Shown here piece by piece: positions 13,687 to 39,593 of a stretch of 64,000 nucleotides of DNA. The position numbers and the translations under genes are program-made. The stretch's first letter is position 1, and every line of letters starts with the position of its first letter. Source of the stretch: an uncultured Algibacter sp. (lineage in GTDB: Bacteria > Bacteroidota > Bacteroidia > Flavobacteriales > Flavobacteriaceae); contig CALGNX010000014.1 in the NCBI GenBank assembly GCA_937958265.1, positions 1 to 64,000 of the forward strand. The letters are read 5' to 3'. The notes under the pieces are model-generated. The model did no database searches, was not told the DNA's origin, and saw only the letters and a list, made by a program, of their open reading frames with translations.

Positions 13687-13947
13687 ACTAGAAAAAAGTA
13701 GATCGAGCCAGTATAAAGCATTATCTAACGGATCGATGCTATTTTAAAGCATAACAATGAAAGGTGCTAAAAGCTTTTGGAAGCCAAATTCCTTGTATTT
13801 AATAAGGTTTTATAATGCCAAAATATTTAGTTTTTAACCTTTAAAGTAAAACTTAGTTATATTGAATTAAGGTGGCGTAGTTAGCTCGTAATGGTTTTAT
13901 GTAGTAATTTGTCTGCTGATTCTTCGTTACTCATAAATTATTTATTG
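13687..13947. other. Intergenic region between the small frame and tRNA-Leu
   Basis: No gene, repeat or terminator recognised. Confidence 0.4.
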
Positions 13948-14033
13948 TGCGCACGAGAAGATTCGAACTTCCACATCCTAAAACGGATACTGGCCCCTCA
14001 AGCCAGCGCGTCTACCAATTCCGCCACGTGCGC
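13948..14033 (-). tRNA. tRNA-Leu (anticodon GAG)
   Basis: An 86-nt class II tRNA: acceptor GCGCACG pairs with CGTGCGC, the anticodon stem CTGGC/GCCAG encloses loop TTGAGGG, there is an extended variable arm (ATCCGTTTTAGGAT), and the T arm contains AAGTTCGAATCTT. CCA is not encoded. Confidence 0.95.
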
Positions 14034-14404: not shown

Positions 14405-17400
14405 TTATTTACAGATTACGATTTTTTTACCATGGGATTTATTATCTATATTAAACCTTAAAAAGTATATGCCACTTGCAACACTTCTTAAATCTATTTT
14501 TTGATTGTTTGTTGCGCTCACCTTGTGTCTGTAAATTAACTTTCCTATTGAATTGTATAGCTCAATTATTGAATTAGTTTGAAAATTAAAACCATATAAC
14601 AGAACGTATTCCTTTGCTGGATTAGGGTACACCTTAATTCCTTTGTCTTTAGAAATGGCATTTTCTGAAGTTAAAGTTACATCTATTTGTAAATTGAAAG
14701 TGGATGTATTTGTGCAACCCGCTGGGTTGGTATAAGTAACTAGCCATTCCCCCTCATTAATACTGCCATACCAGGTGTCTTGTATTAAAATTTGATCATT
14801 ATCAGAACCATTTGTACCTCCCGGAAAAACTTGGCCGTCGGGACGGGTGTATGTAAAGTTCCAATCTTGACTAAAAGCGCCAAGCATATCAAAAAGAACA
14901 CGACTTCCTGGTGCCACAAGCAGGTTAGATGTTTCTTCTAAAGGCAGATCGTCTACTTTACTAAACTGCCTTAATATGTCGTTTGTATTCACGTTAATTT
15001 CAAATTGAGCTGTGTTTGAACAGCCATTGGGATTGGTATATACAACCTCCCAAATACCTTCTGACATTCCGTTATCTAACACATTTGAAATAAGTAATTG
15101 GTCTACCCCTTCTCTATTACTACCTCCTGCTATTTCTTCTCCTGCCGGACTTGTGTAAGCAAAACTCCAATCTGAAGTAAATGCTCCTAAAAAATCAAAT
15201 AAAACAGAATCTCCTTCGCAAACAGAAATTGTATTTGCTCTTGCTAACGGGTTACCAACTTTTGCGATAAACTGCGCCAGTTTAGGGATACCCGCTTCTT
15301 GTACTCCTTTTATATAATCAATTTGTGTACGGACTCTTTTAGAGACATCTACAGGAAAATCTAAACGCAATCCTGAAATTGTTTTGTTAGACCATGCTGG
15401 ATGACCTTCTAAATTAAATACAAGTTCTTGCCATTCTCCTGGGGTTTGATAGTCTAATTTTAAAGATCTAGAGAGACTATAGGTACCATCTTCGTTAGCC
15501 CAAAACAACTCGAACACTCCTGCAATTGTACACAACACCCTAATTCGAAGGGTGTTTAAATCGTTGCCATCAATAGCAAATCCTTCTCTATAAACATAAG
15601 GATCCATTTTAAAATCTGCCCTTATCAACCAATTCTCCTCAGAGTTAGAATTGTTTATTGAAACATCGTTAGTTTTAAATTTCTCTGTAGACTTGTTAAA
15701 CTCAAAATTTAAGTCTTTTGCAGATTCTGGATTTCTACAATTATCAATTTCTAAATAATCGAACATAGTGTCTCCATCGGTATCTGCATAAGCAATATTG
15801 TCTCCCGCTTCACAATTTCCATATAAACAAACATCTATCCTACCTACAAACCCTAAATCATCAAATTTGGACCCCTCTGGCGCTACATATTTTACATACA
15901 ATACATCTTTATCAAACGCATAAGCCGATCCCGAGGTGTTTTTCAATTCTGCTAAATTTACGCGTAATGGCAAGGGGGTTATTCCGTCTGTTATTAAATC
16001 TCTTTCGAAAGCTACAGCTGTAGTTGGCATTGCTGGATACCCAATGATAACATCGTCACCTTGGTCCATACTGTAATAATTCATTCTACTTATGGCTGGT
16101 ATAGAATTTTCGTACCCTAATTGATAGGTGTACTGTCCGTTTACCATGGGCACTAAACTTATGCCTTGTATTTCTACAGTATTATCTTGTTGCACGGCCC
16201 CATCTGATCTAGTAAAAGTAGAACGCTGTCTTTTTTGCTGCCTGATTATCTCATCTGACGGTAAAATCTCTACATAACAATACTTATTTAACGGGCTACT
16301 AATAGCGCCATTACTATTTTCTAAAAAAGTGGTATTCTCATTACTTAAAATAGGAATCCCTTTGTGCATTACAGTAAGCGGTTCTAAACCGGTAAACACT
16401 CCGTCAGTATCTACAACTGTGGCATTTTCCCATACAGGTCGGTTATTAATATCTCTCCAATTAATATAAAAAGAATTTTCGGCTACTGTAGTATTGGTTA
16501 GCGTATGGCCAACATATTTAATATTTGCTCCCCATTGATCAAATAAAGACATTTGAGGAAGCACACCTGCAAAATGGGAATCGTGAACACGCGATGGACC
16601 ATCGTAAATAGTATGTAAATGAACCAAACCGGCAGCACCCCCAACAGCGCCAGCATCTTCTGGTATTTCTTCGTAGTTATCTGAGCCGCCTACCCATAAA
16701 AAACGGTACATATCACCATCCCAGGTTAAAGCCTCACCTTTATAATTATCTGCTATAATAAAGTTTTCCCATCTGGAGGTTCTTTTATTCTGCCCAATAC
16801 GCATGTAGGACGCTAGTAAGTTTTTGTATAATGTATAATTTTTTACCTGTATAACTTCATCGCTTGGTGCCCCAGCATCATAATAATCAAGATTAGGATT
16901 TACATTTTGACTCCTATCATGCGGAAAAACAGTAGGGCCAACCAAAAGACCATGTGTCGAGGAATGAGCTACATTATTGTCCCAATTACCATCGGGTACA
17001 GGTATGTGGCTTGGGTTTAAATCGGGGTTGTGAATGGCACTATTTCTATTTTGATGTGGTGCAAACCATATACCAGAGCCATCTGACCCTGCTGCATGAT
17101 TAAAGTTAATTTTATTATGTGGGTGGGTAATCCAAAATGTAGCCGGACCACTCATGTTTCTTTCATTATCTAAATCAGAAGGTAAAAGTGCGTCTTCTTC
17201 TTTAGGTCGTCTGGTAACTAAACCCAAATTGTACTGCATGGTATTGTTTATTTCGTTACCATCTTCAAAAAAATAGGCATGTCCTAAATTATCGTACGCA
17301 ACATTTTTTTCTACATTGGTATTGTTAGTACCATGTATGGTTACTGCTCTATTAAATGTATTATGAATACTTGAATTTTTTAGATATAAACCCGTACCCC

Positions 17401-18427
17401 CTTCTTGCAATAAATGCCAATGCCATGGATAGCGCCCTAAAATGCCTTTTTGCCCCATATGATATAGCTCTATATTGCTGGCTTTCATTTTAGCGCCTGG
17501 CATACACATCATGTGTCCACCAAATCCGTTTTCTAGACTAGTGTCATCACCTCTTATTCTTATATTATGCGATAATAAACCTACCTCGGCACGCTCATCT
17601 AAAGTCCATGAAATACTTGAATCTTTCCCATGGGTATATTCTTGAAGATCTCCAAAATGCTTATATTCAAAAGGATTATCTAAGGTAAAATTAGTACTAG
17701 AGTTAACTGTTACTATTGTTCTTGTCTCAGCCTTATTCATATCAAAATCTGTAGAAGCAACCACAATTTGGTCTCCTACTTCCCAATTTACGGGCTCTTT
17801 TAATTGTATAATATTACTTCCAGCTGCAATGGTTGCTCCCAATTGTGTCCAAGATACCTTAGGTTTTCCATGCATTTCAAAGGTGGCACCATCCATAACC
17901 ATAATACCTTTAGAGTTTACTGCTGTACCAGGAATTAACTTGTTAGGGTCTTGACCTAACAGTGTTATTGTAGCACCAGAGTTACTTTTATAATATTGGT
18001 TTTCTGTACCTATTTCAAACAATGCATTAGGCCCCATCACCATAATATACTCTGTATTCATATTAAACCATGCTGCACTTTCTTGGTTTTTAACCGCTTT
18101 CATTGTGCCTTTAATGGTAATGCTTTTTGCATTAATGTTACCAAAAGGGGTAATATTAATACCTTCTGGAATTAAAACGTGATCGTTTAATGTAGGTCTT
18201 GTATTTCCTGGCCAAATGGATCTAGTGTTCCAGTTACCAGAGCGTAAGGGTTGTATTGTTGTTTCGTTAACTGCAGCTGAACAAGCGTACTTGGCGCCTA
18301 TTTTAGGAGTCGAATTTGTTGGCTTGTAGTTGGCATAAGCAGGTATCACCAAAAAGAAGACAACAAGGCTGCTTAAAATTTTTAACAAAGAGATTTTATT
18401 TTTGCTTTTAGAGTCGTTCTTCATCAT
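14405..18427 (-). CDS. Secreted G8 domain / right-handed beta-helix protein, CEMIP/TMEM2-like, with T9SS sorting tail
   Basis: A 1340-residue exported protein. Signal peptide at residues 12-33; G8 domain at about 62-185 (RSGNWNTRSIWPG to GATFEMHGKP). Next comes a parallel beta-helix block with the signatures GRYPWHWH (331-338), FNRAVTIHGT (358-367), LGHAYFFEDG (381-390), NLGLVTR and LLPSDLD, the same order as in animal CEMIP and TMEM2, which are linked to hyaluronan depolymerisation. Residues about 929-1046 look like a jelly-roll carbohydrate-binding module. Two tandem Ig-like repeats follow (from about 1064 and 1169; both contain LFD-LGAF, TNP and GCxNT). The tail from 1262 (GIKVYPNPAKEY) is a type A T9SS sorting domain, so the protein is secreted or held on the surface. 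Enzymatic activity is inferred, not shown. It lies beside a uronate-catabolic locus. Confidence 0.88.
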   Translation of the reverse strand: MMKNDSKSKNKISLLKILSSLVVFFLVIPAYANYKPTNSTPKIGAKYACSAAVNETTIQPLRSGNWNTRSIWPGNTRPTLNDHVLIPEGINITPFGNINAKSITIKGTMKAVKNQESAAWFNMNTEYIMVMGPNALFEIGTENQYYKSNSGATITLLGQDPNKLIPGTAVNSKGIMVMDGATFEMHGKPKVSWTQLGATIAAGSNIIQLKEPVNWEVGDQIVVASTDFDMNKAETRTIVTVNSSTNFTLDNPFEYKHFGDLQEYTHGKDSSISWTLDERAEVGLLSHNIRIRGDDTSLENGFGGHMMCMPGAKMKASNIELYHMGQKGILGRYPWHWHLLQEGGTGLYLKNSSIHNTFNRAVTIHGTNNTNVEKNVAYDNLGHAYFFEDGNEINNTMQYNLGLVTRRPKEEDALLPSDLDNERNMSGPATFWITHPHNKINFNHAAGSDGSGIWFAPHQNRNSAIHNPDLNPSHIPVPDGNWDNNVAHSSTHGLLVGPTVFPHDRSQNVNPNLDYYDAGAPSDEVIQVKNYTLYKNLLASYMRIGQNKRTSRWENFIIADNYKGEALTWDGDMYRFLWVGGSDNYEEIPEDAGAVGGAAGLVHLHTIYDGPSRVHDSHFAGVLPQMSLFDQWGANIKYVGHTLTNTTVAENSFYINWRDINNRPVWENATVVDTDGVFTGLEPLTVMHKGIPILSNENTTFLENSNGAISSPLNKYCYVEILPSDEIIRQQKRQRSTFTRSDGAVQQDNTVEIQGISLVPMVNGQYTYQLGYENSIPAISRMNYYSMDQGDDVIIGYPAMPTTAVAFERDLITDGITPLPLRVNLAELKNTSGSAYAFDKDVLYVKYVAPEGSKFDDLGFVGRIDVCLYGNCEAGDNIAYADTDGDTMFDYLEIDNCRNPESAKDLNFEFNKSTEKFKTNDVSINNSNSEENWLIRADFKMDPYVYREGFAIDGNDLNTLRIRVLCTIAGVFELFWANEDGTYSLSRSLKLDYQTPGEWQELVFNLEGHPAWSNKTISGLRLDFPVDVSKRVRTQIDYIKGVQEAGIPKLAQFIAKVGNPLARANTISVCEGDSVLFDFLGAFTSDWSFAYTSPAGEEIAGGSNREGVDQLLISNVLDNGMSEGIWEVVYTNPNGCSNTAQFEINVNTNDILRQFSKVDDLPLEETSNLLVAPGSRVLFDMLGAFSQDWNFTYTRPDGQVFPGGTNGSDNDQILIQDTWYGSINEGEWLVTYTNPAGCTNTSTFNLQIDVTLTSENAISKDKGIKVYPNPAKEYVLLYGFNFQTNSIIELYNSIGKLIYRHKVSATNNQKIDLRSVASGIYFLRFNIDNKSHGKKIVICK

Positions 18428-18959: not shown

Positions 18960-19997
18960 TTAATTGTAGGCTACATTTTCTTTAATAAGAATTTCTATAG
19001 GAAGATAGTGTTTGTTGTTTGGTTTTTCATTCTTTAACAAGAATTGACTCATAATTCGAATAGAGTCGTAACCTTGGTCAAATGGTTTTTGCGATATTAA
19101 AAAAGAGACAGATTCGTTTATTAAACAGTCAATATTCTGTGGGGTATTGTCAAAGCCAATTAATTCAATATTTTTTAAAAACACACTGTTTAAGCAATTG
19201 GCAACTATGTGAATTCTACTCGATGGTACAAATATACCTTTAACTTCAGGATGCCTTTCTAGGTGTTTATTTATGATATTTCTGGTTTCAGTTAAGTTGT
19301 TTAAATTTTCAATTTTTAGTGTTTGCGTTTTGTAATTGTTGTTTTTTAGAAAGTAGTCGTTAAAACCACTAATCCTTTTAGAAACTGCATTGTTGTTAGT
19401 AATGTTATGTTGCGCTTGTATAATTAAAAAATGTGATGGGTTAGGGGTGCTTAGTTGCATTAATTTTGCTGCAATATGGCCGCCTCTGTAAGAATCTTGT
19501 CCAATAAAGGCTATGTTTTTAAAGCCTTCAATATCTATGTTTAAAAATAAATACGGAATTTTTAAGGATTCCAACTGAGATGTAATTTCTGCAGTCTCTA
19601 TAGTGAAGTTGGGAACCATAATTATAGCGCTTGGCTTCGTTCTAATTAAGTTCTTAAACGATTTTTTATAGGAGGCAGGGTTGTATTGGTTATAAGTAAA
19701 GCTTTTAACATTTATTCCAAAAGTTTTTAAATCGTCTGCACATTTTAAAATTCCTAAGTATGGGGCTTTCCAAAATAAATCAAAATCGTTATGTTCGGGA
19801 ATTAATGCTGCTACATTATAATTATTTTTTAATGCTAGTGCACTTGCTATAGGGTTAACACTAAAATTGTGGTATTTTAATAGTTGTTTTATGCGTTGTT
19901 CTGTTTTTTTTGAAACACCGCCTCTGTTATGGATTACGCGATCCACAGTACCTTCTGATACTCCGGCTTCTTTGGCAATATCTTTAATTGTAATCAT
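18960..19997 (-). CDS. LacI-family transcriptional regulator of the uronate operon
   Basis: A 345-residue LacI/GalR repressor. The N-terminal helix-turn-helix (TIKDIAKEAGVSEGTVDRVI, residues 3-22) is followed by the hinge helix region NPIASALA and a periplasmic-binding-protein-like sensor domain (YNVAALIPEHNDFDLFW, FIGQDSYRGGHIAAKLM, KGIFVPSS, ELIGFDNTP). It is divergent from the uronate operon, with a 183-base gap carrying a perfect palindrome, so it most likely represses that operon and responds to a uronate intermediate; this is inferred from position. Many relatives with GTVDRV (instead of ATVSRV) in the recognition helix control sugar-acid genes. Confidence 0.92.
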   Translation of the reverse strand: MITIKDIAKEAGVSEGTVDRVIHNRGGVSKKTEQRIKQLLKYHNFSVNPIASALALKNNYNVAALIPEHNDFDLFWKAPYLGILKCADDLKTFGINVKSFTYNQYNPASYKKSFKNLIRTKPSAIIMVPNFTIETAEITSQLESLKIPYLFLNIDIEGFKNIAFIGQDSYRGGHIAAKLMQLSTPNPSHFLIIQAQHNITNNNAVSKRISGFNDYFLKNNNYKTQTLKIENLNNLTETRNIINKHLERHPEVKGIFVPSSRIHIVANCLNSVFLKNIELIGFDNTPQNIDCLINESVSFLISQKPFDQGYDSIRIMSQFLLKNEKPNNKHYLPIEILIKENVAYN

Positions 19998-20102: not shown

Positions 20103-20136
20103 TTGTGTGCGCACACTATTTAATTTGTTACATTTG
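20103..20136 (+). promoter_or_regulatory. Promoter of the uronate operon with overlapping palindromic operator
   Basis: TTG (20103-20105) and TACATTTG (20129-20136), 23 bases apart, fit the flavobacterial promoter. GTGTGCGCACAC at 20105-20116 is a perfect 12-bp palindrome starting within the -33 element, the expected place and symmetry for a LacI-type operator. The operon ATG is 44 bases downstream at 20181. Confidence 0.65.
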
Positions 20137-20180: not shown

Positions 20181-21008
20181 ATGAGTAAGGTAGTAGTTTT
20201 AACAGGGGCAGGAGGCGTTTTGTGCAGTACATTAGCACTTGCTTTGGCTAAAGAAGGTCATAAAATAGCTGTGTTGGATTTAAGAAAAGAAGCAGCAGAT
20301 AAAGTTGCTACTGAGATAAATACAGCTGGAGGTTTAGCGATAGGTGTTGCAGCAAATGTTTTAGAAAAAGAGTCTTTAATGGCGGCTAAAGCAATCGTTA
20401 ATAAAGAATTAGGGGTTTGCGATATCTTAGTTAATGGAGCAGGAGGTAACCATCCTCTTGGTACAACAAGTAATCCTTATTTGTTAGAAAGCGATCTTGC
20501 AAATGTAACAGAGGGTTTTAAAACATTTTTTGATTTAGATGTTAATGGGATTCAGTTTACATTTAATTTAAATTTTATCGGTACGTTATTACCAACACAA
20601 GTTTTTGCCACAGATATGGTTGGTAGAAAAGGTTGTTCGGTATTAAATATTTCTTCAATGAATGCCTTTACGCCTTTAACAAAAATACCAGCTTACAGTG
20701 GGGCAAAGGCAGCGGTTTCTAATTTTACACAATGGTTAGCGGTGCATTTTTCAAAAGTTGGTATTCGAGTTAATGCTTTAGCTCCAGGTTTTTTCTTAAC
20801 AGATCAAAATAGGAGTTTATTAACAGAATCAGACGGTAGTTTAACCCAACGTGGCCAACAAATTATAGATCAAACACCAATGGGGCGTTATGGTGAGGCT
20901 GAAGATTTAGTAGGTACAACACTATGGTTATGTGGAGAAGGTGCTGCGTTTGTAACAGGCGTAGTAGTACCAATTGATGGCGGTTTTAGTGCGTATAGTG
21001 GTGTTTAA
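20181..21008 (+). CDS. SDR-family D-mannonate oxidoreductase (fructuronate reductase), probable
   Basis: Short-chain dehydrogenase of 275 residues. The Rossmann motif [19 protein letters not shown] is at residues 7-25, NGAGGNHP is the family's NAG site, and the catalytic Tyr and Lys are in YSGAKAAV, with [18 protein letters not shown] after it. It most likely reduces D-fructuronate to D-mannonate, supplying UxuA encoded 17 bases downstream, a role known for SDR-type enzymes in bacteria that lack the classical long-chain UxuB. The function is assigned from family resemblance and gene order. First gene of the operon behind the LacI operator. Confidence 0.82.
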
Positions 21009-21025
21009 TTATTAGAATAGAAATT

Positions 21026-22201
21026 ATGGAACAAACATGGAGATGGTACGGCCCTAAAGATCCCGTATCTTTATTAGATGTAAAACAAGCAGGAGCTACA
21101 GGTGTCGTGTCTGCATTACATCATATACCAAACGGAGAAATTTGGACTATTGATGAAATTCAAAAGCGTAAAGATATAATTGAAAACGCAGGGTTAGCTT
21201 GGAGTGTTGTGGAGAGCATACCAGTGCATGAAAATATTAAAACGCGCTCTGGTGATTATAAATTGTATATTGATAGGTATAAGCAAAGCATAGAAAATTT
21301 AGCAGCATGCGGTATTCATGTTGTATGTTATAATTTTATGCCCGTTTTGGATTGGACAAGAACCGATTTAGCTTTTCAAGTAGAAGATGGGTCAAAGGCA
21401 TTGCGTTTTGATGTTATTGCTTTTGCAGCGTTTGAGTTGTTTTTGTTAAAACGACCAGGTGCAGAAAATAGTTATTCTGCTATCCAACAAGCGGCGGCTA
21501 AAGTGTATTTTGAAAATCTATCCGAAGCAGATAAAAAACAACTAACAAATAATATTATAGCAGGTTTGCCAGGCGCAGAAGAAGGCTATACATTGGAGCA
21601 ATTTCAAACAATATTAGATTCATATAAAAATATTGATGCGCCTAAATTGCAAGAAAACTTAGTATCTTTCTTAAAAGAAATTATTCCTGTAGCGTCTAAA
21701 AATAAAGTGCTTATGTGTATTCATCCAGACGACCCACCATATCCTATTTTAGGATTACCAAGAGTGGTAAGTACAGAGGCAGATTATGCACATTTGTTTG
21801 ATAGCGTTCCAGATCGATCAAACGGTATCACATTTTGTACAGGATCTTTAGGTGTAAGAGCAGATAATAATCTTGTTCAAATTTTTAAGCGTTTCTCAGA
21901 CCGTGTTCACTTTCTTCATTTAAGAAGTACAAAAAGAGATGAGCAAGGTAATTTCTATGAAGCTAACCATTTGGATGGCGACGTAAATATGTTTAGTGTA
22001 GTTAAAGCGGTAGTAGAAGAAGAAGCAAGAAGAAAGGCAGAAGGGTATGCAGATTTTGCTATTCCCGTAAGGCCAGACCATGGGCACCAAATGTTAGATG
22101 ATTTACACAAAAAAACAAACCCTGGCTATTCAGGAATTGGAAGATTAAGAGGTTTAGCAGAATTGCGAGGTCTAGAATATGGTATAAAACAAAGTATTTA
22201 A
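21026..22201 (+). CDS. uxuA: Mannonate dehydratase
   Basis: UxuA dehydrates D-mannonate to 2-keto-3-deoxy-D-gluconate. The 391-residue protein starts with the typical [20 protein letters not shown] and has the metal-site segments [41 protein letters not shown] and [11 protein letters not shown], all in the usual order of a TIM-barrel enzyme with His and Cys ligands. Length is normal for the family. It is the point where the glucuronate branch enters the KDG pool. Confidence 0.96.
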
Positions 22202-22220: not shown

Positions 22221-23060
22221 ATGAAAACACATTACGAAACCCGTTACGCAACAAGCCCTAAAGCTGTAAAAGCATTTGATACGGCTGAGTTGAGAGAAGA
22301 GTTTTTAATTGATAACTTAATGAAAGAAGATCAATTAATTTTAGTTTATACACATTACGATAGGTACATGGCAGGTTCTGCCGTGCCAATAGCACCAATA
22401 AAGTTAGAAACTATTGATCCTTTAAAGTCTGAGTATTTTTTAGAGAGAAGAGAAATAGGTATTATTAATGTAGGTGGTGACGGTACTGTTGAGGTTGATG
22501 GAGAAGTATTTCATTTAACATTAAAGGATGCTTTATACATAGGTAGCGGTAAAAAAGAAGTGATATTTAAAAGTGATGATGCAAAGAATCCTGCTAAATT
22601 TTATATCAATTCAGCGCCAGCACACACCTCTTACCCATCTAAAAAAGTGAGTAAAGCAGATGCTAACAAGCTTGAATTAGGATCTTTAGAAACTGCAAAC
22701 CACCGTACTGTTAACCAACAAATTATTGGAGGTATTGTTGAAACCTGTCAGCTTCAAATGGGAATGACGGAATTGAAAACAGGAAGTGTTTGGAATACAA
22801 TGCCAGCACATGTACATGATAGACGAATGGAAATCTATTATTATTTAGATATTCCACAAGATCAATCGGTGTGTCATTTCATGGGGCAACCTCAAGAAAC
22901 CAGACATATTTGGATGCAAAATCACCAAGCAGTTATTTCGCCACCTTGGTCTATTCACTCAGGAGCAGGTACATCTAATTATACCTTTATTTGGGGTATG
23001 GCAGGAGAAAATCTAGATTATGGCGATATGGATGTTGCTAAAATAACTGAATTAAGATAA
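22221..23060 (+). CDS. kduI: 5-dehydro-4-deoxy-D-glucuronate isomerase
   Basis: KduI isomerises 4-deoxy-L-threo-5-hexosulose uronate, formed from unsaturated uronates released by polysaccharide lyases, to 3-deoxy-D-glycero-2,5-hexodiulosonate. The 279-residue cupin begins MKTHYETRYATSPKAVKAFD and carries the metal ligands in the segment PAHVHDRRMEIYYYLD with a later His in WSIHSGAGTSNYTFIWGMAGEN. Its presence shows that the locus handles products of lyase action, not only free saturated uronates. Two bases separate it from kduD. Confidence 0.96.
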   Translation: MKTHYETRYATSPKAVKAFDTAELREEFLIDNLMKEDQLILVYTHYDRYMAGSAVPIAPIKLETIDPLKSEYFLERREIGIINVGGDGTVEVDGEVFHLTLKDALYIGSGKKEVIFKSDDAKNPAKFYINSAPAHTSYPSKKVSKADANKLELGSLETANHRTVNQQIIGGIVETCQLQMGMTELKTGSVWNTMPAHVHDRRMEIYYYLDIPQDQSVCHFMGQPQETRHIWMQNHQAVISPPWSIHSGAGTSNYTFIWGMAGENLDYGDMDVAKITELR

Positions 23061-23062
23061 TT

Positions 23063-23857
23063 ATGAGCATATCATTATTTGATGTTAAAGGCAAAAATGC
23101 CTTGGTAACAGGCAGTACACATGGTTTAGGCATGGCTATGGCTAGGGGTTTAGGTTTGGCAGGTGCAACTATTATTGTAAACGGAAACTCATCACAGGAC
23201 AAAATTGATAAAGCTGTTGCACTGTATAAAAGCGAAGGCATTAATGCGGTTGGCTACAAATTTAATGTAGCTAACGAGGCCGAGGTAATTGAAGCTATTA
23301 CTAATATTGAAGAAGAAGTTGGGCAAATTGATATTTTAATTAATAATGCAGGTATTATAAAACGTACGCCTTTATTAGAAATGGAAGTTGCAGATTTTAA
23401 ACAAGTTATTGATATTGATTTGGTTAGTCCCTTTATAGTTTCCAAGCATGTAGTAAAAGGCATGATTTCTAGAAAAGCGGGTAAAGTAATTAATATTTGC
23501 TCAATGATGAGCGAGCTAGGCCGAAATAGTGTTGGTGCTTATGCTGCAGCTAAAGGCGGATTAAAAATGCTTACTCAAAATATGGCTACAGAATGGGCAA
23601 AGCATAACATACAAGTTAATGGTATTGGACCAGGTTATTTTGCAACATCGCAAACAGAAGCTATTCGTGTGGACGGACATCCTTTTAACGATTTTATTGT
23701 AAATCGTACACCAGCAGCTAAATGGGGCGACCCTAACGATTTGGCAGGAGCAGCTATCTTTTTAGCGTCTAAAGCCAGCGATTTTGTTAGTGGTCATATC
23801 TTATATGTTGATGGGGGTATATTAGCCACCATAGGCAAACCTTCTAATGAAGACTAA
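23063..23857 (+). CDS. kduD: 2-dehydro-3-deoxy-D-gluconate 5-dehydrogenase
   Basis: SDR enzyme that reduces the KduI product to 2-keto-3-deoxygluconate with NAD(P)H. Features are the Rossmann motif TGSTHGLGMAMARGL (about residues 16-30), NNAGIIKRTPLLEM, catalytic Tyr and Lys in YAAAKGGLKML, and GIGPGYFATSQTEAIR, a typical KduD stretch. The length of 264 residues is slightly above the usual 250-255. It is translationally close to kduI (2-base gap) and to the following lipoprotein gene. Confidence 0.94.
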   Translation: MSISLFDVKGKNALVTGSTHGLGMAMARGLGLAGATIIVNGNSSQDKIDKAVALYKSEGINAVGYKFNVANEAEVIEAITNIEEEVGQIDILINNAGIIKRTPLLEMEVADFKQVIDIDLVSPFIVSKHVVKGMISRKAGKVINICSMMSELGRNSVGAYAAAKGGLKMLTQNMATEWAKHNIQVNGIGPGYFATSQTEAIRVDGHPFNDFIVNRTPAAKWGDPNDLAGAAIFLASKASDFVSGHILYVDGGILATIGKPSNED

Positions 23858-23858
23858 T

Positions 23859-25043
23859 ATGAATAAATCATTTTTTTTTAAAACGTTACTACTCTCTGTT
23901 TTTGTTTTTGGTTGTAAAACTAAAAACAAAACAGAGCAAGTAGTAACCATTAAAAACACATTAAGTGTACCGCGTACTTTCGAAACGGTAGAGCTCAACA
24001 AATCCGACCTTGTACTAAAGGATGGTGTGAGTTTTACAAATTTATCTGTTAAAGATTTAACTACAAATACAATCGTAGTTTCGCAATTTGTAGATAATAA
24101 TCAAGATGGCGAGATGGATACGCTACTGTTTCAGCCAGAAGTAGGAGCAAACTCAGAAAGTCGATTTGAATTAGTTGTTTTGGATAAAAAACAAAATACC
24201 GAGGTAATAGATTATTGTTATTCTAGATTTGTGCCAGAGCGCACAGATGATTATGCTTGGGAGAACGATAAAGTAGGATTTAGAACGTTTGGTCCTGTTG
24301 CTCAAAAAATGGTAGAGGATGGTGTAAAGGGTGGTACTTTATCTAGTGGTATTGATGCATGGTTAAAAAAAGTGGATTACCCCATTATAAATAAATGGTA
24401 TGAAAAGGCAACTGCAGGTACAGGTTCTTATCATGAGGATACTGGCGAAGGCTTAGATAATTTTCATGTAGGTGTAAGTAGAGGTGTAGGAGGTATTGCT
24501 GTAAAGCAAGATACAACATTCTATGTGTCTAGAAATTTTACCAATTGGAAAACCATAACTACTGGGCCAATACGAACAAGTTTTGTTTTAGAATATGCCA
24601 ATTGGGATGCTAACGGAAAAACCATTACCGAAAAAAAACATATCTCTCTAGATTACGGTAACAATTTATCCAAATTTGAAATTGAAATCTCTGGAACCGA
24701 AACCTTTTATGCGGGTTTAACGTTGCATAAAAATGAAGGTAAACCAAGCGAGAATATTAAAAATGGTTGGATTTCGTATTGGGAACCTCATTTTGGTTCC
24801 GAGTTAGGTATGGCTATAGTAGTACCAAATAATCAGCTAAAATCTTCAGAGCTTTTTGTAACACCTTTAAAAGACCAAAGTAATTTATTCGCGGAGATTA
24901 AAGTGGCAAATAATAAAAGTGTATACTATGCCGGTTTTGCTTGGGAGGAATCCAAACAATTTAAAAATAAACAAGCATGGGAAGCGTATTTAAATACATT
25001 TTCATTAAAACTTAATAATCCATTATTAGTTTCTTTGAAGTAA
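23859..25043 (+). CDS. DUF4861 family lipoprotein, function unknown, in uronate operon
   Basis: About 394 residues with a lipoprotein signal (MNKSFFFKTLLLSVFVFGC, lipidated Cys19), so it is envelope-bound, unlike the cytosolic enzymes around it. The family signatures are RFVPERTDDYAWENDKVGFR near residue 115, GIDAWLKKVDYPIINKWY, GEGLDNFHVGVSRGVGG and GPIRTSFVLEY. DUF4861 proteins are, as I recall, common in Bacteroidota pectin or uronate loci but have no proven activity; a periplasmic enzyme or binding protein acting on uronate oligosaccharides is plausible. The ATG at 23859 follows the kduD stop by one base; an ATG at 23847 is in frame but would overlap kduD and lengthen the signal peptide. 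Confidence 0.82.
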   Translation: MNKSFFFKTLLLSVFVFGCKTKNKTEQVVTIKNTLSVPRTFETVELNKSDLVLKDGVSFTNLSVKDLTTNTIVVSQFVDNNQDGEMDTLLFQPEVGANSESRFELVVLDKKQNTEVIDYCYSRFVPERTDDYAWENDKVGFRTFGPVAQKMVEDGVKGGTLSSGIDAWLKKVDYPIINKWYEKATAGTGSYHEDTGEGLDNFHVGVSRGVGGIAVKQDTTFYVSRNFTNWKTITTGPIRTSFVLEYANWDANGKTITEKKHISLDYGNNLSKFEIEISGTETFYAGLTLHKNEGKPSENIKNGWISYWEPHFGSELGMAIVVPNNQLKSSELFVTPLKDQSNLFAEIKVANNKSVYYAGFAWEESKQFKNKQAWEAYLNTFSLKLNNPLLVSLK

Positions 25044-25052
25044 TAAGCATTT

Positions 25053-26459
25053 ATGAAATCAACTCAATTTATTACCGATAATTTTTTATTACAATCTGAA
25101 GTTGCTGTAACACTTTATCATAAGTACGCTAAAGATTTACCAATTATAGATTATCATAATCATTTATCTGCACAGAAAATAGCGGAAAATTTACCTGTTA
25201 AAAATATTAGTGATGCTTGGTTAAAGGAAGACCATTACAAATGGCGCGGTATGCGAGCAAACGGTATTGATGAGAAATATATAACAGGTGACTCAACCCA
25301 AAAAGAAAAGTTTTTTAAGTGGGCCGAAACAGTGCCTTACACTTTAAAAAACCCATTATTTCATTGGACGCATTTGGAGTTAAAGCGTTATTTTGATATC
25401 GATGCTATTCTGCAACCGTCATCAGCAGAATCGATTTATGATACGGCGAATAAAATACTTGCCGAAAAAACACCAGCAGATTTATTAGAGCATATGAATG
25501 TTGAGGTTGTTTGCACAACGGACGATCCAACGGATAGTTTAGAGCATCATAAAGCTATTGCAGACGCAGGTTTTTTTACTAAAGTTTTTCCAACTTTTAG
25601 GTCGGATGAATTGTTTTTTATTGGGCAAGATAAATTTTTAAAGTATTTAGAAAAATTGAGTAGCGTTGTGAATTTTGAAATTAATTCGTTTTCAGATTTC
25701 ACAAAAGCTATCGACAACAGAATCGTTTTTTTTAATAATAACGGTTGTCGTTTATCCGATTTTGGAGTTGGAGAAGCTTTAGTTATTGAAGATTTTACAA
25801 CCGAAGAGGTAGCGCGTATTTTTGCCAAAAAGCTTAATTGCGAAGCTTTGTCTTTTTTAGAAATAAATAAATACAGGTCATTTTTGTTTATTTATTTGGC
25901 AAAAAAATATCACGAAGTTAATTGGGTGCAGCAATATCATTTAGGCCCCATAAGAAATAATAATACAAGACTGGTTGAGCAAATAGGTTTGGATGCGGGC
26001 TGCGATTCTATTGGTGATTTTCCAATGGCTAATTTTATGTCTAAATTATTTAATATTCTAAATTCTACAAATCAATTAGCTAAAACAATTACCTATAACT
26101 TAAACCCGTCCCAAAATGAAGTGTTTGCAACTATGATGGGGAATTTCCAAAACTCAGATGCACCAGGGAAAATGCAGTGGGGTTCTGGTTGGTGGTTTCT
26201 AGATCAAAAAGATGGCATGGAAAAGCAAATTAATTGTCTGTCTAACATGGGTTTATTAAGTCGTTTTGTTGGTATGCTAACAGATAGTCGTAGTTTTTTA
26301 TCGTTTCCAAGGCATGAGTATTTCAGACGTATTTTATGTAACCTGTTAGCCGATGATGTTAACCAAGGGCTTATTCCCAACGATATGGAGTTTTTAGGAA
26401 AAATGGTTCAGGATATTTGTTACTACAATGCTAAAAATTATTTTAAATTTAATCTATAA
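25053..26459 (+). CDS. uxaC: Glucuronate/galacturonate isomerase
   Basis: UxaC converts D-glucuronate to D-fructuronate and D-galacturonate to D-tagaturonate. The 468 residues begin with the conserved LPIIDYHNHL (metal-site His pair near residues 36-38), followed by VVCTTDDPTDSL, RPTFRSD-like FPTFRSDELF, GCRLSDFGVGEAL, the QYHLGPIRNNN segment, and the C-terminal signatures MQWGSGWWFLDQKDGM, GMLTDSRSFLSFPRHEYFRRILC. The length and the motifs are standard. It starts the saturated-uronate branch whose next steps (SDR, UxuA) are encoded upstream in the same operon. Confidence 0.96.
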   Translation: MKSTQFITDNFLLQSEVAVTLYHKYAKDLPIIDYHNHLSAQKIAENLPVKNISDAWLKEDHYKWRGMRANGIDEKYITGDSTQKEKFFKWAETVPYTLKNPLFHWTHLELKRYFDIDAILQPSSAESIYDTANKILAEKTPADLLEHMNVEVVCTTDDPTDSLEHHKAIADAGFFTKVFPTFRSDELFFIGQDKFLKYLEKLSSVVNFEINSFSDFTKAIDNRIVFFNNNGCRLSDFGVGEALVIEDFTTEEVARIFAKKLNCEALSFLEINKYRSFLFIYLAKKYHEVNWVQQYHLGPIRNNNTRLVEQIGLDAGCDSIGDFPMANFMSKLFNILNSTNQLAKTITYNLNPSQNEVFATMMGNFQNSDAPGKMQWGSGWWFLDQKDGMEKQINCLSNMGLLSRFVGMLTDSRSFLSFPRHEYFRRILCNLLADDVNQGLIPNDMEFLGKMVQDICYYNAKNYFKFNL

Positions 26460-26472
26460 AAAGGCCTTAGGT

Positions 26473-27447
26473 ATGCAATGTAGAATTCTTTTTCTTTTAA
26501 TTATGGTTGGTCTCTTTTCTTCTTGTGAAGAAAAAAGTAGCGCTAAGGTGCTCTATTTAGCGCATACTTTGCCGCAAACCCATCCTGTACATAAAGGAAT
26601 ATTGGCATTTCAGGATGCTTTGGAAAAAAAATCTGGTGGCCAATTGGTACTTAAAATATTTCCCGATGGTATGTTGGGTTCAGAAAGAGAAGTTTTGGAA
26701 TTACTGCAAATAGGTAGTGTTGCAGCAACTAAGGTAAGTGCGGCTACATTATCTAATTTTGTCCCAGAATATCATGTTTTAGGCATTCCTTATTTGTTTA
26801 GAAGTAAGGAACATCAATACGAAGTTTTAGAAGGACCAATAGGTAAATCAATTTTACAAAAAGGTGAAAAGTTTTGGTTAAGAGGCCTGTGTTATTACGA
26901 TGCAGGGAGCAGAAGTTTTTACACCTCAAAAAAAGCTATTAGAACACCTGACGATTTGAAAGGCTTGAAAATACGAGTAATGAATAATCAAATGGCCATT
27001 AATATGGTTAATGCTATGGGCGGTTCTGCTACACCTATGGCTTATGGAGAGCTTTATACAGCAATTCAACAAGGGGTTGTTGATGGGGCAGAAAATAACG
27101 CGCCGTCTTTTGTGTCTTCAAACCATCATGAAGTTAGTAAATATTACACTCTAGATCAGCATTCGTCCGTTCCAGATGTGCTAATTATGGGGACTAAATT
27201 TTGGAATAATCTAACAGATCAAGAGCGCGTATGGGTACAAGAGGCTGCTGATGAATCTGCTCAGGCAGAAAAGAAATTTTGGAATAATTCTGTGGAAGAG
27301 TCTATGAAAATAGCACAAAAATTTGGCGTTGAAATTATTATTCCTGAAAAATCTTTATTTGCCGATAAAACAAAATCGGTATTAGAAGATTTTTTAAAGC
27401 AGAAACCTGAAATGAGAGAATTAGTGAATAAAATTAAAGACGAATAG
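26473..27447 (+). CDS. TRAP transporter solute-binding protein DctP, lipoprotein
   Basis: Substrate-binding component of a tripartite ATP-independent periplasmic transporter. From the Met at 26473 it has a lipoprotein signal MQCRILFLLIMVGLFSSC (Cys18), then ahtlPQTHPVHKGILAFQ, FPDGMLGSEREVLELLQIG, the ligand-binding DLKGLKIRVMNN with its conserved Arg, and AIQQGVVDGAENN. The open frame extends to 26428 but that would overlap uxaC and lacks a signal sequence at its start. Gene context makes a hexuronate the likely ligand. DctQ and DctM follow directly. Confidence 0.92.
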   Translation: MQCRILFLLIMVGLFSSCEEKSSAKVLYLAHTLPQTHPVHKGILAFQDALEKKSGGQLVLKIFPDGMLGSEREVLELLQIGSVAATKVSAATLSNFVPEYHVLGIPYLFRSKEHQYEVLEGPIGKSILQKGEKFWLRGLCYYDAGSRSFYTSKKAIRTPDDLKGLKIRVMNNQMAINMVNAMGGSATPMAYGELYTAIQQGVVDGAENNAPSFVSSNHHEVSKYYTLDQHSSVPDVLIMGTKFWNNLTDQERVWVQEAADESAQAEKKFWNNSVEESMKIAQKFGVEIIIPEKSLFADKTKSVLEDFLKQKPEMRELVNKIKDE

Positions 27448-27449
27448 TT

Positions 27450-27941
27450 ATGAGAATTTTCGATATTATTTTTGAAAAGGTTAATCGATTCATGGAAATT
27501 TTTCTCGTATTTATTTTTGGGCTTTTAGTACTTGATGTTTTATGGCAAGTGTTTTCTAGGTACGTATTAAATATGTCGTTTTCGTGGACAGAAGAACTTG
27601 CGCGTTTCTCATTAATATGGCTATCTATTTTAGGTGCCGCTTATCTTAATGCGCGAAGAGAGCATTTATCTATGGATTTTTTGTATGGTAAGTTTTCTAA
27701 CCCTACAAAGAAAAAGGTATCTATTCTTATAGAAGTTTTTATCTTTTTATTTGCATTAATTGTAATGTTTGTTGGCGGTTCTAATTTGGTTTATACAACC
27801 TTACATTTGGATCAGCTTTCCGGTACCTTAAGGGTACCCTTAGGTTACATTTATGCCGTTTTGCCATTTAGTGGTTTTTTAATTATGTGTTTTTCTGTTT
27901 ATCATATTTCAAAAATATCTTCTAATCAAATAGCTGTATAA
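27450..27941 (+). CDS. TRAP transporter small permease DctQ
   Basis: The 163-residue four-helix membrane subunit that joins DctP recognition to the large permease. Helices lie at about residues 14-36, 46-65, 88-110 and 126-147; the family signature WTEELARFSLIWLSILGAA precedes ARREHLSMDF. It is separated from dctP and dctM by two bases on each side, so the three are one translational unit. Confidence 0.9.
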   Translation: MRIFDIIFEKVNRFMEIFLVFIFGLLVLDVLWQVFSRYVLNMSFSWTEELARFSLIWLSILGAAYLNARREHLSMDFLYGKFSNPTKKKVSILIEVFIFLFALIVMFVGGSNLVYTTLHLDQLSGTLRVPLGYIYAVLPFSGFLIMCFSVYHISKISSNQIAV

Positions 27942-27943
27942 TT

Positions 27944-29248
27944 ATGAGTATTGAAGTTGTAAGTATCCTTGTTTTATTTGTTAGTTTTTTTAGCTTACTA
28001 ATGTTAAAAGTACCTGTGGCCTACGCTATAGGCATTTCTACAACAATAAGTCTTTTATTGAATATTGATAAACTTCCTGGTATAACAACCATTGCACAAC
28101 GTATGACTACGGGCATAGATAGTTTTGCTCTGTTGGCTATTCCGTTTTTTGTACTTGCAGGCGAAATTATGAAACGTGGAGGTATTGCAAATAGGCTCAT
28201 AAATTTTGCAAAATCTATTGTAGCAGCGCTTCCAGGCGGACTTGCTTATGTAAATGTTTTGGCTTCTATGCTTTTTGGTGCGATTTCTGGTTCTGCAATT
28301 GCGGCGGCTTCAGCAATTGGAAGTATCATGACAGATAGAATGGAGGAAGAAGGTTATCCACGAGAATTTAGCGCCTCTGTAAATATAACGTCATCAACAA
28401 CTGGATTACTTATACCGCCTAGTAATATTTTAATAGTTTATGCTTTGGCTAGTGGTGGTACAGCTTCCGTTGCGGCTTTATTTATTGCGGGGTATTTACC
28501 AGGAATATTGTTAGGTGCAGCTATTATGGGCTATATCGCTTTTGTCGCTATAGCGAGAAAGTTTGCTAAGGGACAACGGGCGCCTTTATCTGAAATCTGG
28601 AACCATTTCCGAAAATCATTTTTTAGTTTATTATTATTAATTATTGTTGTGGGCGGTATAGTAGCAGGTATTTTTACCGCCACTGAAGCTTCAGCAATAG
28701 CAGTTTTGTATGCTACAATTTTGGCTTTAATTTATGGAGATATGAAAGTCAATCAATTTCCCGACATTTTACTTAATAGTGCGCGAACAACAGGTGTTGT
28801 AATGTTTTTAATTTGTACATCAATGGCTATGTCTTGGTTGTTCTCTTTCGAGAGTATACCAGAACTGATGAGTAGTTTTTTGTTAGAGCAATTTAGTAAT
28901 AAATTTGTTATTTTTCTTGTTATCAATCTTACTTTATTAATTATAGGCACATTTATGGACATGACGCCAGCGGTCTTAATATTCACACCAATTTTCCTGC
29001 CTGTAGTAGTGGCCTTAGGTATGGATCCAGTGCATTTCGGTATTGTATTGGTTTTAAATTTATGTGTGGGTTTATGTACGCCTCCAGTAGGTACAATACT
29101 TTTTGTTGGTAGTGGTGTAGCTAATGTTTCTGTAACAAAAGTGGTTAAACCGTTATTGCCGTTTTTGTTAATAATGATTATTGTATTAATGCTTATTACA
29201 TATATTCCTGAAATATCCATGTTCTTGCCGCGATTATTTGGATTGTAA
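27944..29248 (+). CDS. TRAP transporter large permease DctM
   Basis: The 434-residue sodium-coupled channel subunit of the TRAP transporter. Twelve or so hydrophobic segments include the usual LLAIPFFVLAGEIMKRGGIA, MLFGAISGSAIAAASAIGSI, the TGLLIPPSNILIVYALASGG segment and the pseudo-symmetric partner NLCVGLCTPPVGTILFVGSG. It is the last gene of the operon starting at 20181. Together with DctP and DctQ it gives the cell a complete inner-membrane importer, in contrast to the MFS-type ExuT used by many bacteria for uronates. Confidence 0.95.
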   Translation: MSIEVVSILVLFVSFFSLLMLKVPVAYAIGISTTISLLLNIDKLPGITTIAQRMTTGIDSFALLAIPFFVLAGEIMKRGGIANRLINFAKSIVAALPGGLAYVNVLASMLFGAISGSAIAAASAIGSIMTDRMEEEGYPREFSASVNITSSTTGLLIPPSNILIVYALASGGTASVAALFIAGYLPGILLGAAIMGYIAFVAIARKFAKGQRAPLSEIWNHFRKSFFSLLLLIIVVGGIVAGIFTATEASAIAVLYATILALIYGDMKVNQFPDILLNSARTTGVVMFLICTSMAMSWLFSFESIPELMSSFLLEQFSNKFVIFLVINLTLLIIGTFMDMTPAVLIFTPIFLPVVVALGMDPVHFGIVLVLNLCVGLCTPPVGTILFVGSGVANVSVTKVVKPLLPFLLIMIIVLMLITYIPEISMFLPRLFGL

Positions 29249-29655: not shown

Positions 29656-32600
29656 ATGAATTTAAAAAGGACTTTAAAAAATACGTCTTTTATCAGGCGG
29701 TTTTTAATTGCGGCTGCAATGATTTTTTCATTTGTGGCTTCTACGAGCGCCCAAACTGTTACGGGTGTGGTTACAGCCAACGGTTTCCCCTTACCTGGGG
29801 CTACAATTTTAGTTAAGGGTACTTCAATTGGAGTTGTTACCGATTTTGATGGGAATTACATAGTGGATGCAGGCACCAATCCAACACTCGTTTTTTCTTT
29901 TCTTGGTTATGAAACCAAAGAGATTGCCATTAATGGACGTGCTAAAATTGATGTGGTTTTAGAGGAAGGCGGAGAAGCGTTAGGTGAGATTGTTGTAGTT
30001 GGTTATGGTACTCAGAAAAAAGAATCTGTAGTTGGTGCGATTACTCAAATTAAGGGAGAAGATTTACAAGAGCTAACGCTAGGTATTACAAACGTACAGG
30101 AAGCTTTACAAGGAAACTTACCAGGGCTTACTGCCATTCAGGGTAGTGGCGTTCCTGGTCGTAATGATGTGCAGATTTTTATTCGTGGCCAAGCGTCTTG
30201 GAATGGTTCTGGGCAACCTTTAATATTGGTAGACGGTGTTCCACGAGATATTGATAATATTGATTCCAATGATATTCAAAACATATCGGTGCTTAAAGAT
30301 GCATCAGCTACAGCAGTTTATGGTGTACAGGGTGCTAATGGTGTTATACTAATTACTACCAAAAGGGGTAAAAAAGGTAAAGCGCAACTTTCCTTTCAGG
30401 TAAATACTACCATAAAAACAGTATCGAAGTTACCCGAGAAATTAAATGCTTATGATGCTATACTAGAAGCAAATTCGTCAGTTTTACGCGAGCTTTCGCA
30501 AAATGAAGCTTCATGGGATTCATATAGACCACTAGCTATTGCTGAAAATTATCGTAATCCAGCCAATGAAGAGCAGCGTTTACTTTTTCCTGATGTAAAT
30601 TGGAGAGATGTGTTGTTAAAGGATTTTGCGCAAGATTATCGTGTTAATTTATCAGCACGTGGTGGTGGCGAAAAATCTAGGTATTTCGCTAGTTTGGCTT
30701 ATCAAACGGTGGCTGATATTTTCGATGGTGAAAGTTATGATAATGGTAAAGGATACGAAAGTGGATTTACTTACGATAGATTTAATTTCCGAAGTAATTT
30801 AGATTTTAATATTACTAATACTACCGAGTTTACTGTTAATTTAGGTGGTTTCTATGCGATACAACAAACTCCAGGAGGCTTAAATTTGGTTACCAATTCA
30901 ATTTACGAATTGGCACCTAATGCGTACACGCCAATTTTTCCCGATGGTGCTTTTGGTAGAGATTTTAATGATGTATTTGCAAATACCAACCCACTGGTTA
31001 CTTTAACTAACACCGGGTATACCACAGATACCAGATTTCAAATTAACACTGATTTTATTTTAAAGCAAAATTTAGATTTTATAACAGAAGGATTATCTTT
31101 TCAGTCCCGTTTTTCTTTGGATAATGCAACAGAGAGTCGTCAACAATTATTAGATCCAGGCGCAGACGGACAAGAAAACGTGCGCTATCGTATATTCGAT
31201 CGATTTTTTACAGAAACTATAGAATCACCTAATGGTGTTAACGATTTTGATTTCGTGCCTTTTCCTTGGACAGTTTCAGAACCTGAAATTCGTAATGGGC
31301 AAATTGTACGTAACTTATTATATGATGCAGCTATTAATTATAGCAAAACCTTTGGTGAAAAGCATACGGTTACCGGTTTGGCTTCTGTAAGACGTCAAGA
31401 ACGTGGTAGAGGGAATGGTTTTTTAATATTTCGTGAGGATTGGGTAAGTCGTGTAACCTATGATTACGACAAGCGTTACTTTTTGGACATCAGTGGGGCA
31501 TACAATGGATCGGAGAAATATGGCCCAGGATTTCGTTTTGATTTGTTTCCCGCTATTGCAGCAGGTTGGACAATCTCAAACGAGGCTTTTATGAGTGATG
31601 TGGATTGGGTAAATAAGCTTAAATTGAGAGGTTCGTATGGTATTATTGGAGACGACTCTGGTGGAAGTAGATTTGAGTACCAACCAACATTTAGTATTGG
31701 TGGAGGTTCTTTTATAAATCCTAATGCGTCTAACCAGCGCGGGCCATACGAGTTTTATAGTGAGCAAAACGTAGGTAATCCTAATTTACGTTGGGAAACT
31801 GCCACGAAATATAATGGCGCAGTAGAAGTGTCTTTATTTAATAGTTTAGTTACGGCAGAAGTAGATTTTTATGGAGAAAACCGTACTGATATTTTAATAC
31901 CTAGCGGTCAAAGAGCAGTACCTGAGTGGTTTGGTGCCTCACCGCCATCTTTTAACAGAGGGCAAGTTGAAGTGAGGGGGTATGAAATTGTATTAGGAAC
32001 CAACTATACATTTAGTAGCGGTTTAAACCTTTTTGGTAATTTTAACCTAAATCAAGCAAAAGATCTTGTTTTGGATAGGGAGGATCCTGAGTTTAGACCA
32101 TTTTATCAAAAACAAGCGGGCTATGCTATTGGCCAGCCAAGATCAGCAATTCCTGGACAAATATTAGCGAGCTTAGATGACTTGTATAGCTCTACACCAC
32201 GAGTAAACGGTCAGGATGCTATACGTACAGGTTATTATAATTTAATTGATTATGATGGTGATGGAGAATATAATGCAAATTTTGATAATGTGCCGTTTGG
32301 CTTTCCTGTGCGACCGCAAAGAAATTGGTCTGCTACAGTAGGCGCTAAATATAAAGGTTTAAAATTATCTGTTCAGTTTTATGGTACACAAAATACCAAT
32401 AGAAACTACGTTTCAAGAACGTTTACAAACCAAACAGATACGTTTTTTGCACATGAGTTAGGGTATTGGACTAAGGATAATCCAAATGGTACGCGTACAC
32501 AACCTACATTTTTTGCAGATCAAGGAGCTAGCGATCCAAGACGAAATTTTTGGGATGGTTCTCTAACAAGGCTTCGAGCAATTGCTTTAAATTATACGGT

Positions 32601-32790: not shown

Positions 32791-32802
32791 AAAAAAAAGA
32801 AT

Positions 32803-34701: not shown

Positions 34702-34742
34702 TACTTTAATAAACGCCTTAAACTAAATCTAAATATAATAAA

Positions 34743-37808: not shown

Positions 37809-37829
37809 ATAAATAAAAATAGATATAAA

Positions 37830-39554: not shown

Positions 39555-39593
39555 AGTTTATAGGGTTTAAATTTAAATGATAAATATATTAAT

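Follow-up and report, generated by a model that had tools for sequence, protein, structure and literature searches.

A stretch of 64,000 nucleotides from an uncultured Algibacter sp. (contig CALGNX010000014.1; hereafter the window) carries on its minus strand, at 14405..18427, a gene for a bacterial protein of 1340 residues that belongs to the G8 and CEMIP β-helix superfamily. Its closest relative of known structure is the ectodomain of human TMEM2. The chief new result, as read from sequence alignment, is twofold: a cluster of the form HxH/His/ExxxE is conserved from the bacterial proteins to TMEM2, and lectin-like domain 1 of TMEM2 is absent from the bacterial proteins.

The domain content is clear. 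The open reading frame (ORF) begins with ATG, and all of its features lie on the minus strand. The G8 domain (PF10162, E 1.7e-18) spans residues 72–196 (17840..18214) and scores 67.2 bits against a Pfam cut-off of 22.9; the CEMIP β-helix (PF24606, E 3.8e-61) spans residues 301–493 (16949..17527) and scores 207 bits against 27.3. At the C terminus, a Por_Secre_tail match at residues 1266–1338 (14414..14632; PF18962, E 7.1e-14, 52.3 bits; TIGR04183, 45.6 bits) is a type A sorting tail of the type IX secretion system (T9SS), which places the protein among T9SS cargo and makes it probably secreted. A preliminary description of this DNA had proposed a CEMIP/TMEM2-like protein with a G8 domain, a series of quoted motifs, and a T9SS tail, and the ORF, its translation, and the Pfam matches all agree with that proposal. 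The G8 domain was reportedly defined in an earlier paper that already included bacterial members.

The kinship with TMEM2 is supported by both sequence and fold. In a phmmer search of the PDB, the only significant relative of the 1340-residue protein is the TMEM2 ectodomain (8c6i, E 4.4e-48), the other two rows having E values above 0.1. A profile built from 68 bacterial rows finds 8c6i at E 1.4e-107 and no other match up to E 10. An AlphaFold model of residues 51–740 has a mean predicted local distance difference test (pLDDT) score of 87.5. With this core model, Foldseek returns TMEM2 at E 5.6e-31 and the next match at 1.6e-9, and VIA returns TMEM2 at Z 35.2 (607 residues, 29% identity, root-mean-square deviation 2.5) and the next fold at Z 18.8, in a list from which the absence of a fold does not rule that fold out. 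Because TMEM2 scores so far above generic β-helix folds, the kinship is real and specific, and the likeness that had first been read from motifs holds in structure as well. As in TMEM2 (8c6i; PMC10206443), the G8 domain runs on into the β-helix, and the two proteins have in common the motifs GGHIM, GRYPxHxH, R, HGT, GHxxFxEDGxE, FWI, and HS. They differ in how they end: TMEM2 has a transmembrane anchor, whereas the bacterial protein has an Ig-like C-terminal region and the T9SS tail.

The conserved cluster begins with GRYPWHWH at residues 331–338 (17414..17437), a position given in the preliminary description and borne out by the translation. His336 and His338 of this motif align with His550 and His552 of TMEM2; His365 (codon 17333..17335), on the next rung, aligns with His585; and the acids of the EDGNE segment, Glu388 and Glu392 (17252..17266), align with Glu608 and Glu612, the TMEM2 numbers being derived from the published construct. 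TMEM2 thus also holds [RK]YxxHxH, the following His, and ExxxE. In an alignment of the window protein with 67 of 79 length-filtered copies (68 rows; the 12 omitted are mostly near or tandem copies), His336, His338, Arg360, His365, Glu388, Glu392, Asn395, Asn400, Asp418, Asn438, Asn443, and His488 are invariant. Histidine occupies 8 of the 56 columns conserved at ≥95% in these rows, compared with 3.3% overall (binomial p 0.0005). The conservation of Asn359, Arg360, His365, and His305 is biased, since the search patterns that retrieved the loci include the NR....H[GT] and GGH stretches; with the stretches covered by the scan patterns removed, His still occupies 6 of 48 such columns (p 0.005).

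An unbiased set consists of the 20 members that a Pfam profile search brought up with no motif selection, the window protein and a paralogue from its own genome included. Nineteen of these hold [RK]YxxHxH; the remaining one, L019, was missed by the 68-row profile and is not aligned. In all 19, a His follows 26–29 residues past HxH (39 in L126) and ExxxE is present. A distant branch of six of the 19 (L011, L012, L013, L017, L018, and L126, compared by eye) lacks Arg360 and His383 and keeps GRYxxHxH, the next His, and ExxxE. One candidate was lost in this comparison: by analogy with uronan C5-epimerases, Arg360 had been considered as a catalytic partner of His, and the idea was dropped because the Arg is missing from these six members.

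In the core model, His336/His338, His365, and Glu388 lie in or next to strands that are one helix turn, or 23–29 residues, apart. A nickel ion in the TMEM2 crystal has been assigned to a site that contains His552 (PMC11043200), and since His338 of the window protein aligns with His552, it stands at the equivalent of this published nickel-site position. The TMEM2-like region of PKHD1L1 can be set beside the bacterial protein in the same way through a published residue equivalence: His2479 of PKHD1L1, a large animal coat protein and in that respect unlike the bacterial one, corresponds to TMEM2 His552 (PMC11043200) and hence to His338.

The second part of the result concerns what the bacterial proteins lack. 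Between two aligned blocks, TMEM2 has 172 unaligned residues, which hold Arg265, Asp273, and Asp286, whereas all 68 bacterial rows have 19–22 residues from Trp193 to Trp215 at this place. Bacteria therefore supply the core without lectin-like domain 1, which falls within residues 167–338 of the TMEM2 chain. The mutations listed in the crystal-structure paper as abolishing TMEM2 activity, R265C, D273N, and D286N, are all inside this domain (PMC10206443). The same holds for the comparison with CEMIP (HYBID/KIAA1199), which gives its name to the Pfam β-helix family and is like the window protein by that family membership: CEMIP Arg187, the equivalent of TMEM2 Arg265 (PMC10206443), has no counterpart segment in the bacterial protein. 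In view of the missing domain, we do not file the protein as a CEMIP/TMEM2 hyaluronidase proper, and cleavage of hyaluronan by it is putative.

What the protein does can be framed as a proposal, to which we would give slightly less than an even chance: the protein would be an endo-acting enzyme that cleaves an acidic extracellular polysaccharide by means of a divalent-cation site on its helix, and so a bacterial superfamily member that works without lectin-like domain 1. Judging from the core model, a divalent cation may be held on successive rungs by the HxH pair (His336 and His338), His365, and Glu388/Glu392. This cation site would also be the catalytic site, and the protein would cut a glycan rather than merely bind it. 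The substrate would carry uronic acid, and its chain would be cleaved internally, as by an endo-acting depolymerase.

A second proposal dispenses with catalysis: the β-helix would bind a glycan or form a coat, the His and Glu residues would hold a cation for structural reasons, and the repeated Ig-like segments would serve as a stalk. We consider such a non-catalytic surface or matrix protein unlikely, and the published record on its animal relatives is divided. The TMEM2 ectodomain could be crystallized and was inactive in purified form (PMC10206443), and the stereocilia coat depends on the related PKHD1L1 (PMC11043200). By contrast, a purified TMEM2 ectodomain degraded hyaluronan in another study (PMC10474455). 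Many homologue loci are without the carbohydrate markers searched for, tandem copies of the gene occur in some loci, and the model of the C-terminal region matches mainly Ig-like domains, which would suit a stalk; on the other hand, some homologues lie inside carbohydrate loci, and a strict set of His and Glu residues on successive rungs, kept even in the distant branch, exceeds the usual need of a scaffold.

Several points nonetheless weigh against cleavage at the cation site. The conserved His residues could be structural. In addition to the inactive preparation already mentioned, human TMEM2 has been reported as non-catalytic (PMC10276149), and the crystal-structure paper was unable to assign an active site (PMC10206443). 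Ca2+ is a reported requirement of TMEM2, and the cation site of the bacterial protein is putative. No activity of any bacterial member was found in the literature searched. Finally, none of the uronate or carbohydrate markers searched for lies near the closest relatives of the window protein (L039 and L041–L043).

How metal is handled may bear on the conflict over TMEM2 itself. HisTrap columns are charged with nickel. The inactive preparation was purified on such a column, contained nickel, and was assayed at pH 6 (PMC10206443), whereas the active one was purified on cobalt resin and assayed at pH 7 with substrate from another vendor (PMC10474455). Culture supernatants that had never been on metal resin were likewise active, and the authors of that study propose substrate quality and inhibitors in the culture medium as causes of the disagreement (PMC10474455). 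Metal occupancy could thus be one cause among several, given that pH and substrate vendor differed too. A broader conjecture, which we hold to be quite improbable as a whole, is that proteins with G8 and CEMIP domains are ancient metal-dependent glycan cleavers of bacteria and animals, with a site of the form HxH...H...ExxxE, that the lectin-like domain is a substrate-binding addition on the animal side, and that the TMEM2 conflict is in part a matter of metal occupancy.

Cleavage could also rest on the conserved acids. The protein might be a β-helix glycoside hydrolase that uses the acids Glu388, Glu392, and Asp418, with the His cluster binding substrate. All three acids are invariant in the 68 rows, the ExxxE pair is retained in the distant branch, and the weaker Foldseek or VIA matches of the core include β-helix hydrolases (GH28 and GH110) and phage tailspikes. 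These fold matches are weak in comparison with TMEM2, however, and uronan epimerases and lyases are among them (AlgG, AlgE4, AlgE6, and an alginate epimerase/lyase in VIA), and HxH is kept as strictly as the acids are. We therefore regard a hydrolase of this kind as a doubtful candidate. As between lyase and hydrolase chemistry, the occurrence of KduI in the neighbourhood in two lineages would tilt slightly toward a lyase.

The second half of the protein is less informative. The preliminary description had seen a carbohydrate-binding-like module there; none was recognized in residues 720–1265 by Pfam at E 0.1. For the whole protein, Pfam gives four families at E ≤0.1, and none of the four is a polysaccharide lyase family. 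The predicted model of the C-terminal region is poor (pLDDT 64.3; predicted template modelling score 0.36), and its best PDB matches are mostly titled Ig-like domains. Two repeated segments at residues ~1055–1255 (14663..15265) look Ig-like in the alignment and in this low-confidence model. The top Foldseek row for residues 715–1262 (14642–16285; low confidence) is the neck of the Aureispira grappling-hook protein GhpA, above many Ig-like domains, a match that probably reflects merely the common Ig fold.

The G8/CEMIP gene is widespread yet sparse. A pattern scan over one genome per species gave 315 stretches, of which 293 encode relatives; 80 were kept, corresponding to 77 named loci. These relatives come from Bacteroidota, Myxococcota, Hahella, Meiothermus, Verrucomicrobiota, Acidobacteriota, and others; a pattern scan of viral contigs found no relative. 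By Pfam profile, matches are present in 11 of 249 genomes of the same family (8 of them strong) and, at the level of the order, in 5 of 395. The nearest relatives are L039, from Saprospiraceae (64% identity), and L040, a fragment whose best-matching segment reaches 70%. A quick tree places the window protein in a small clade with L039, two Hahella proteins, and one from Microscilla, apart from most flavobacterial copies and from the second copy in its own genome. That second CEMIP-like gene (G000:C1:394577-398122; L004, L022, and L023) falls in a clade with Aquimarina copies and is flanked by nitrite reductase-like and molybdopterin oxidoreductase genes rather than by a glycan locus. Tandem triples of CEMIP-like genes occur in one Saprospiraceae genome (L100:8287-18710) and in Algibacter lectus (L057:7894-19148).

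The genes next to the window gene had suggested a role in uronate catabolism, and the neighbours named in the preliminary description are indeed present. A LacI-family regulator (18960..19997, minus strand) lies on the same strand as the CEMIP-like gene, 532 bp away from where that gene starts; it stands between that gene and the uronate cassette and is divergent from the latter. The cassette, on the plus strand, encodes a UxuB-like D-mannonate oxidoreductase of the short-chain dehydrogenase/reductase (SDR) type (20181..21008; NF006132), the mannonate dehydratase UxuA (21026..22201; TIGR00695), the 5-dehydro-4-deoxyglucuronate isomerase KduI (22221..23060; NF002091; the only PF04962 match of the genome), an SDR like KduD or gluconate 5-dehydrogenase (23063..23857), a DUF4861 (BT3233 family) protein with no PDB relative (23847..25043), the uronate isomerase UxaC (25053..26459), and the tripartite ATP-independent periplasmic (TRAP) transporter DctP, DctQ, and DctM (26428..29248). 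Two SusC/SusD pairs and a BT_3987_N/DUF5627 protein follow (29656..40724, plus strand). A tRNA-Leu (gag) gene just downstream of the CEMIP-like gene (13947..14033, minus strand) is a possible insertion site. Upstream of the uxuB-like gene, a near-palindrome, TTGTGTGCGCACACTA, at 20103–20118 may be an operator; the region ahead of the CEMIP-like gene has none that passes the same test. A motif chosen by eye in that region occurs at chance frequency, and no LacI operator shared by the two genes was found. For a protein labelled "PL37-like", the label being a guess, there is neither a Pfam match nor a PDB relative.

Among the scanned ORFs of 20181–43741, no polysaccharide lyase, sulfatase, GH88/GH105 enzyme, or any other carbohydrate-active enzyme was recognized. 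Measured as a polysaccharide utilization locus (PUL), the region has SusC/SusD pairs and no recognized enzyme of this kind among those ORFs, with the CEMIP-like gene beyond the regulator. In pairing SusC/SusD with uronate catabolism, it resembles the ulvan and chondroitin loci of Bacteroidota (PMC8511951, PMC12269599), from which its scanned ORFs differ in showing no recognized lyase, sulfatase, or GH88/GH105 enzyme. In the literature searched, no paper linked the G8 domain to Bacteroidetes together with polysaccharides or to PULs, or G8 domain-containing proteins to bacteria.

The absence of a classical lyase, taken in the preliminary description as a sign that the CEMIP-like protein is the depolymerase, is correct for these scanned ORFs and not for the genome: one PL7 gene and five PL14 genes lie on contigs other than that of the window, and the genome has one BNR_4 match. 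No heparinase II/III family member was found in the genome in a search whose positive control was detected; chondroitinase-B gave one match below the cut-off, GH88 two matches, one of them weak, and the PL8 search none, its control being silent as well, so that this last result is no proof of absence. Since the PL7 and PL14 enzymes could feed KduI, the single KduI need not depend on the CEMIP-like protein, and the argument from a missing lyase fails. A SusC/SusD locus with the weak GH88 match (G000:C14:117942-123692), ~88 kb from the cassette, resembles, by eye and by first residues, one near the cassette of a congener (G044:C1:288442-294766).

It is possible, and to our mind an evenly balanced matter, that the substrate is unrelated to the cassette, the gene having been gained beside it near the tRNA-Leu gene and working alone; this would be compatible with the other explanations. 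The lyases elsewhere in the genome fit this view, as do the intervening divergent regulator and the failure to find a shared operator. The congener G044 has an orthologous cassette (61–92% identity) beside other SusC/SusD genes and no CEMIP match. None of the seven other strong-match genomes of the same family has cassette genes near CEMIP within the 12–40 kb examined, and the closest relatives (Saprospiraceae, Hahella, and Microscilla) are without the cassette in the flanking DNA examined; the genes around them could not be linked to glycans.

The wider survey points largely the same way. The homologue loci extend up to ~10 kb on each side, some being shortened by a contig end, and 20 control stretches were taken from five genomes. 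KduI is near 6 of the 77 homologue loci, all in Aquimarina, and near none of the 20 controls. UxuA is near 1/77 (0/20 controls), UxaC near 0/77 (1/20), SusC of the window type near 0/77 (1/20), and SusD near 0/77 (0/20). The lack of UxaC, SusC, and SusD near all 77 loci argues against a conserved uronate PUL, and the expectation that homologues would sit beside uronate genes is largely contradicted. Neighbour counts for PL14 and BNR_4 were discarded because the queries contain Ig-like (Big_7) and T9SS-tail domains that recur in many proteins, and Pfam results were used instead.

Two observations run against a substrate unrelated to the cassette. First, KduI is present in 6 of the 8 genomes with strong CEMIP matches versus 82 of the remaining 241 (Fisher p 0.025); the 88 KduI genomes among the 249 are mostly without CEMIP, and the co-occurrence may just reflect polysaccharide-degrading lifestyles. 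Second, in 6 of 11 Aquimarina loci (L047, L064, L065, L067, L073, and L076), one or two CEMIP-like genes adjoin a similar cassette with KduI, KduD, DUF4861, a KdgK-like (PfkB) kinase, and TRAP genes. Pfam identifies 2-keto-3-deoxy-6-phosphogluconate aldolase in four of these cassettes that were checked, and L073 has two PL14 genes. These CEMIP-like genes flank the TRAP end of the cassette, opposite to the window gene, and those of their products that are in the quick tree fall in two other clades. Taken as a whole, the preliminary interpretation is partly supported: the kinship with TMEM2 is firm, and for a uronate link there is some evidence, with homologues lying mainly away from uronate genes. 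The uronate cassette may use products of the CEMIP-like protein, yet it also stands without the gene in the congener; inference from neighbourhood is weak, and the neighbourhood of the window gene does not explain the function of its protein.

Other homologues sit in loci of a different kind. Sulfatases are near 15/77 loci versus 2/20 controls, and near 8 of 23 flavobacterial loci, an excess that is suggestive only. In Algibacter, Polaribacter, Nonlabens, and Flavicella, CEMIP-like genes sit with sulfatases and with GH78- or GH106-like (rhamnosidase-like) genes, and RhaM is present in three loci. In the flavobacterial loci L046, L052, L054, L055, L057, L060, L070, and L083 they are near sulfatases and in most cases also near GH78-like genes, L054 also containing genes for RhaM, for an FGE-type protein, and for sugar kinases. 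Such loci are reminiscent of ulvan-type loci, and the presence of several separate clades in glycan loci favours a polysaccharide role. In Marinoscillum (L074:6192-9633), a GH88-family gene (E 1.4e-66) and a gene for an unrecognized 587-residue protein stand beside the CEMIP-like gene; this protein resembles ones in Polaribacter and Nonlabens loci.

Overall, the bacterial proteins offer a way into a dispute that the animal proteins have left standing. Whether and where TMEM2 and CEMIP cut hyaluronan is contested, and the inactivating mutations listed above sit in a domain with no counterpart in the bacterial proteins. With a deeply conserved HxH/His/ExxxE cluster and a natural lack of the lectin-like domain, the chemistry of the family becomes testable, and the bacterial core of ~690 residues, which shares both helix and cluster with TMEM2, is the test object. 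If the core is active, the cleavage site would be placed on the helix; if it is inactive on all acidic glycans, a binding role would be favoured.

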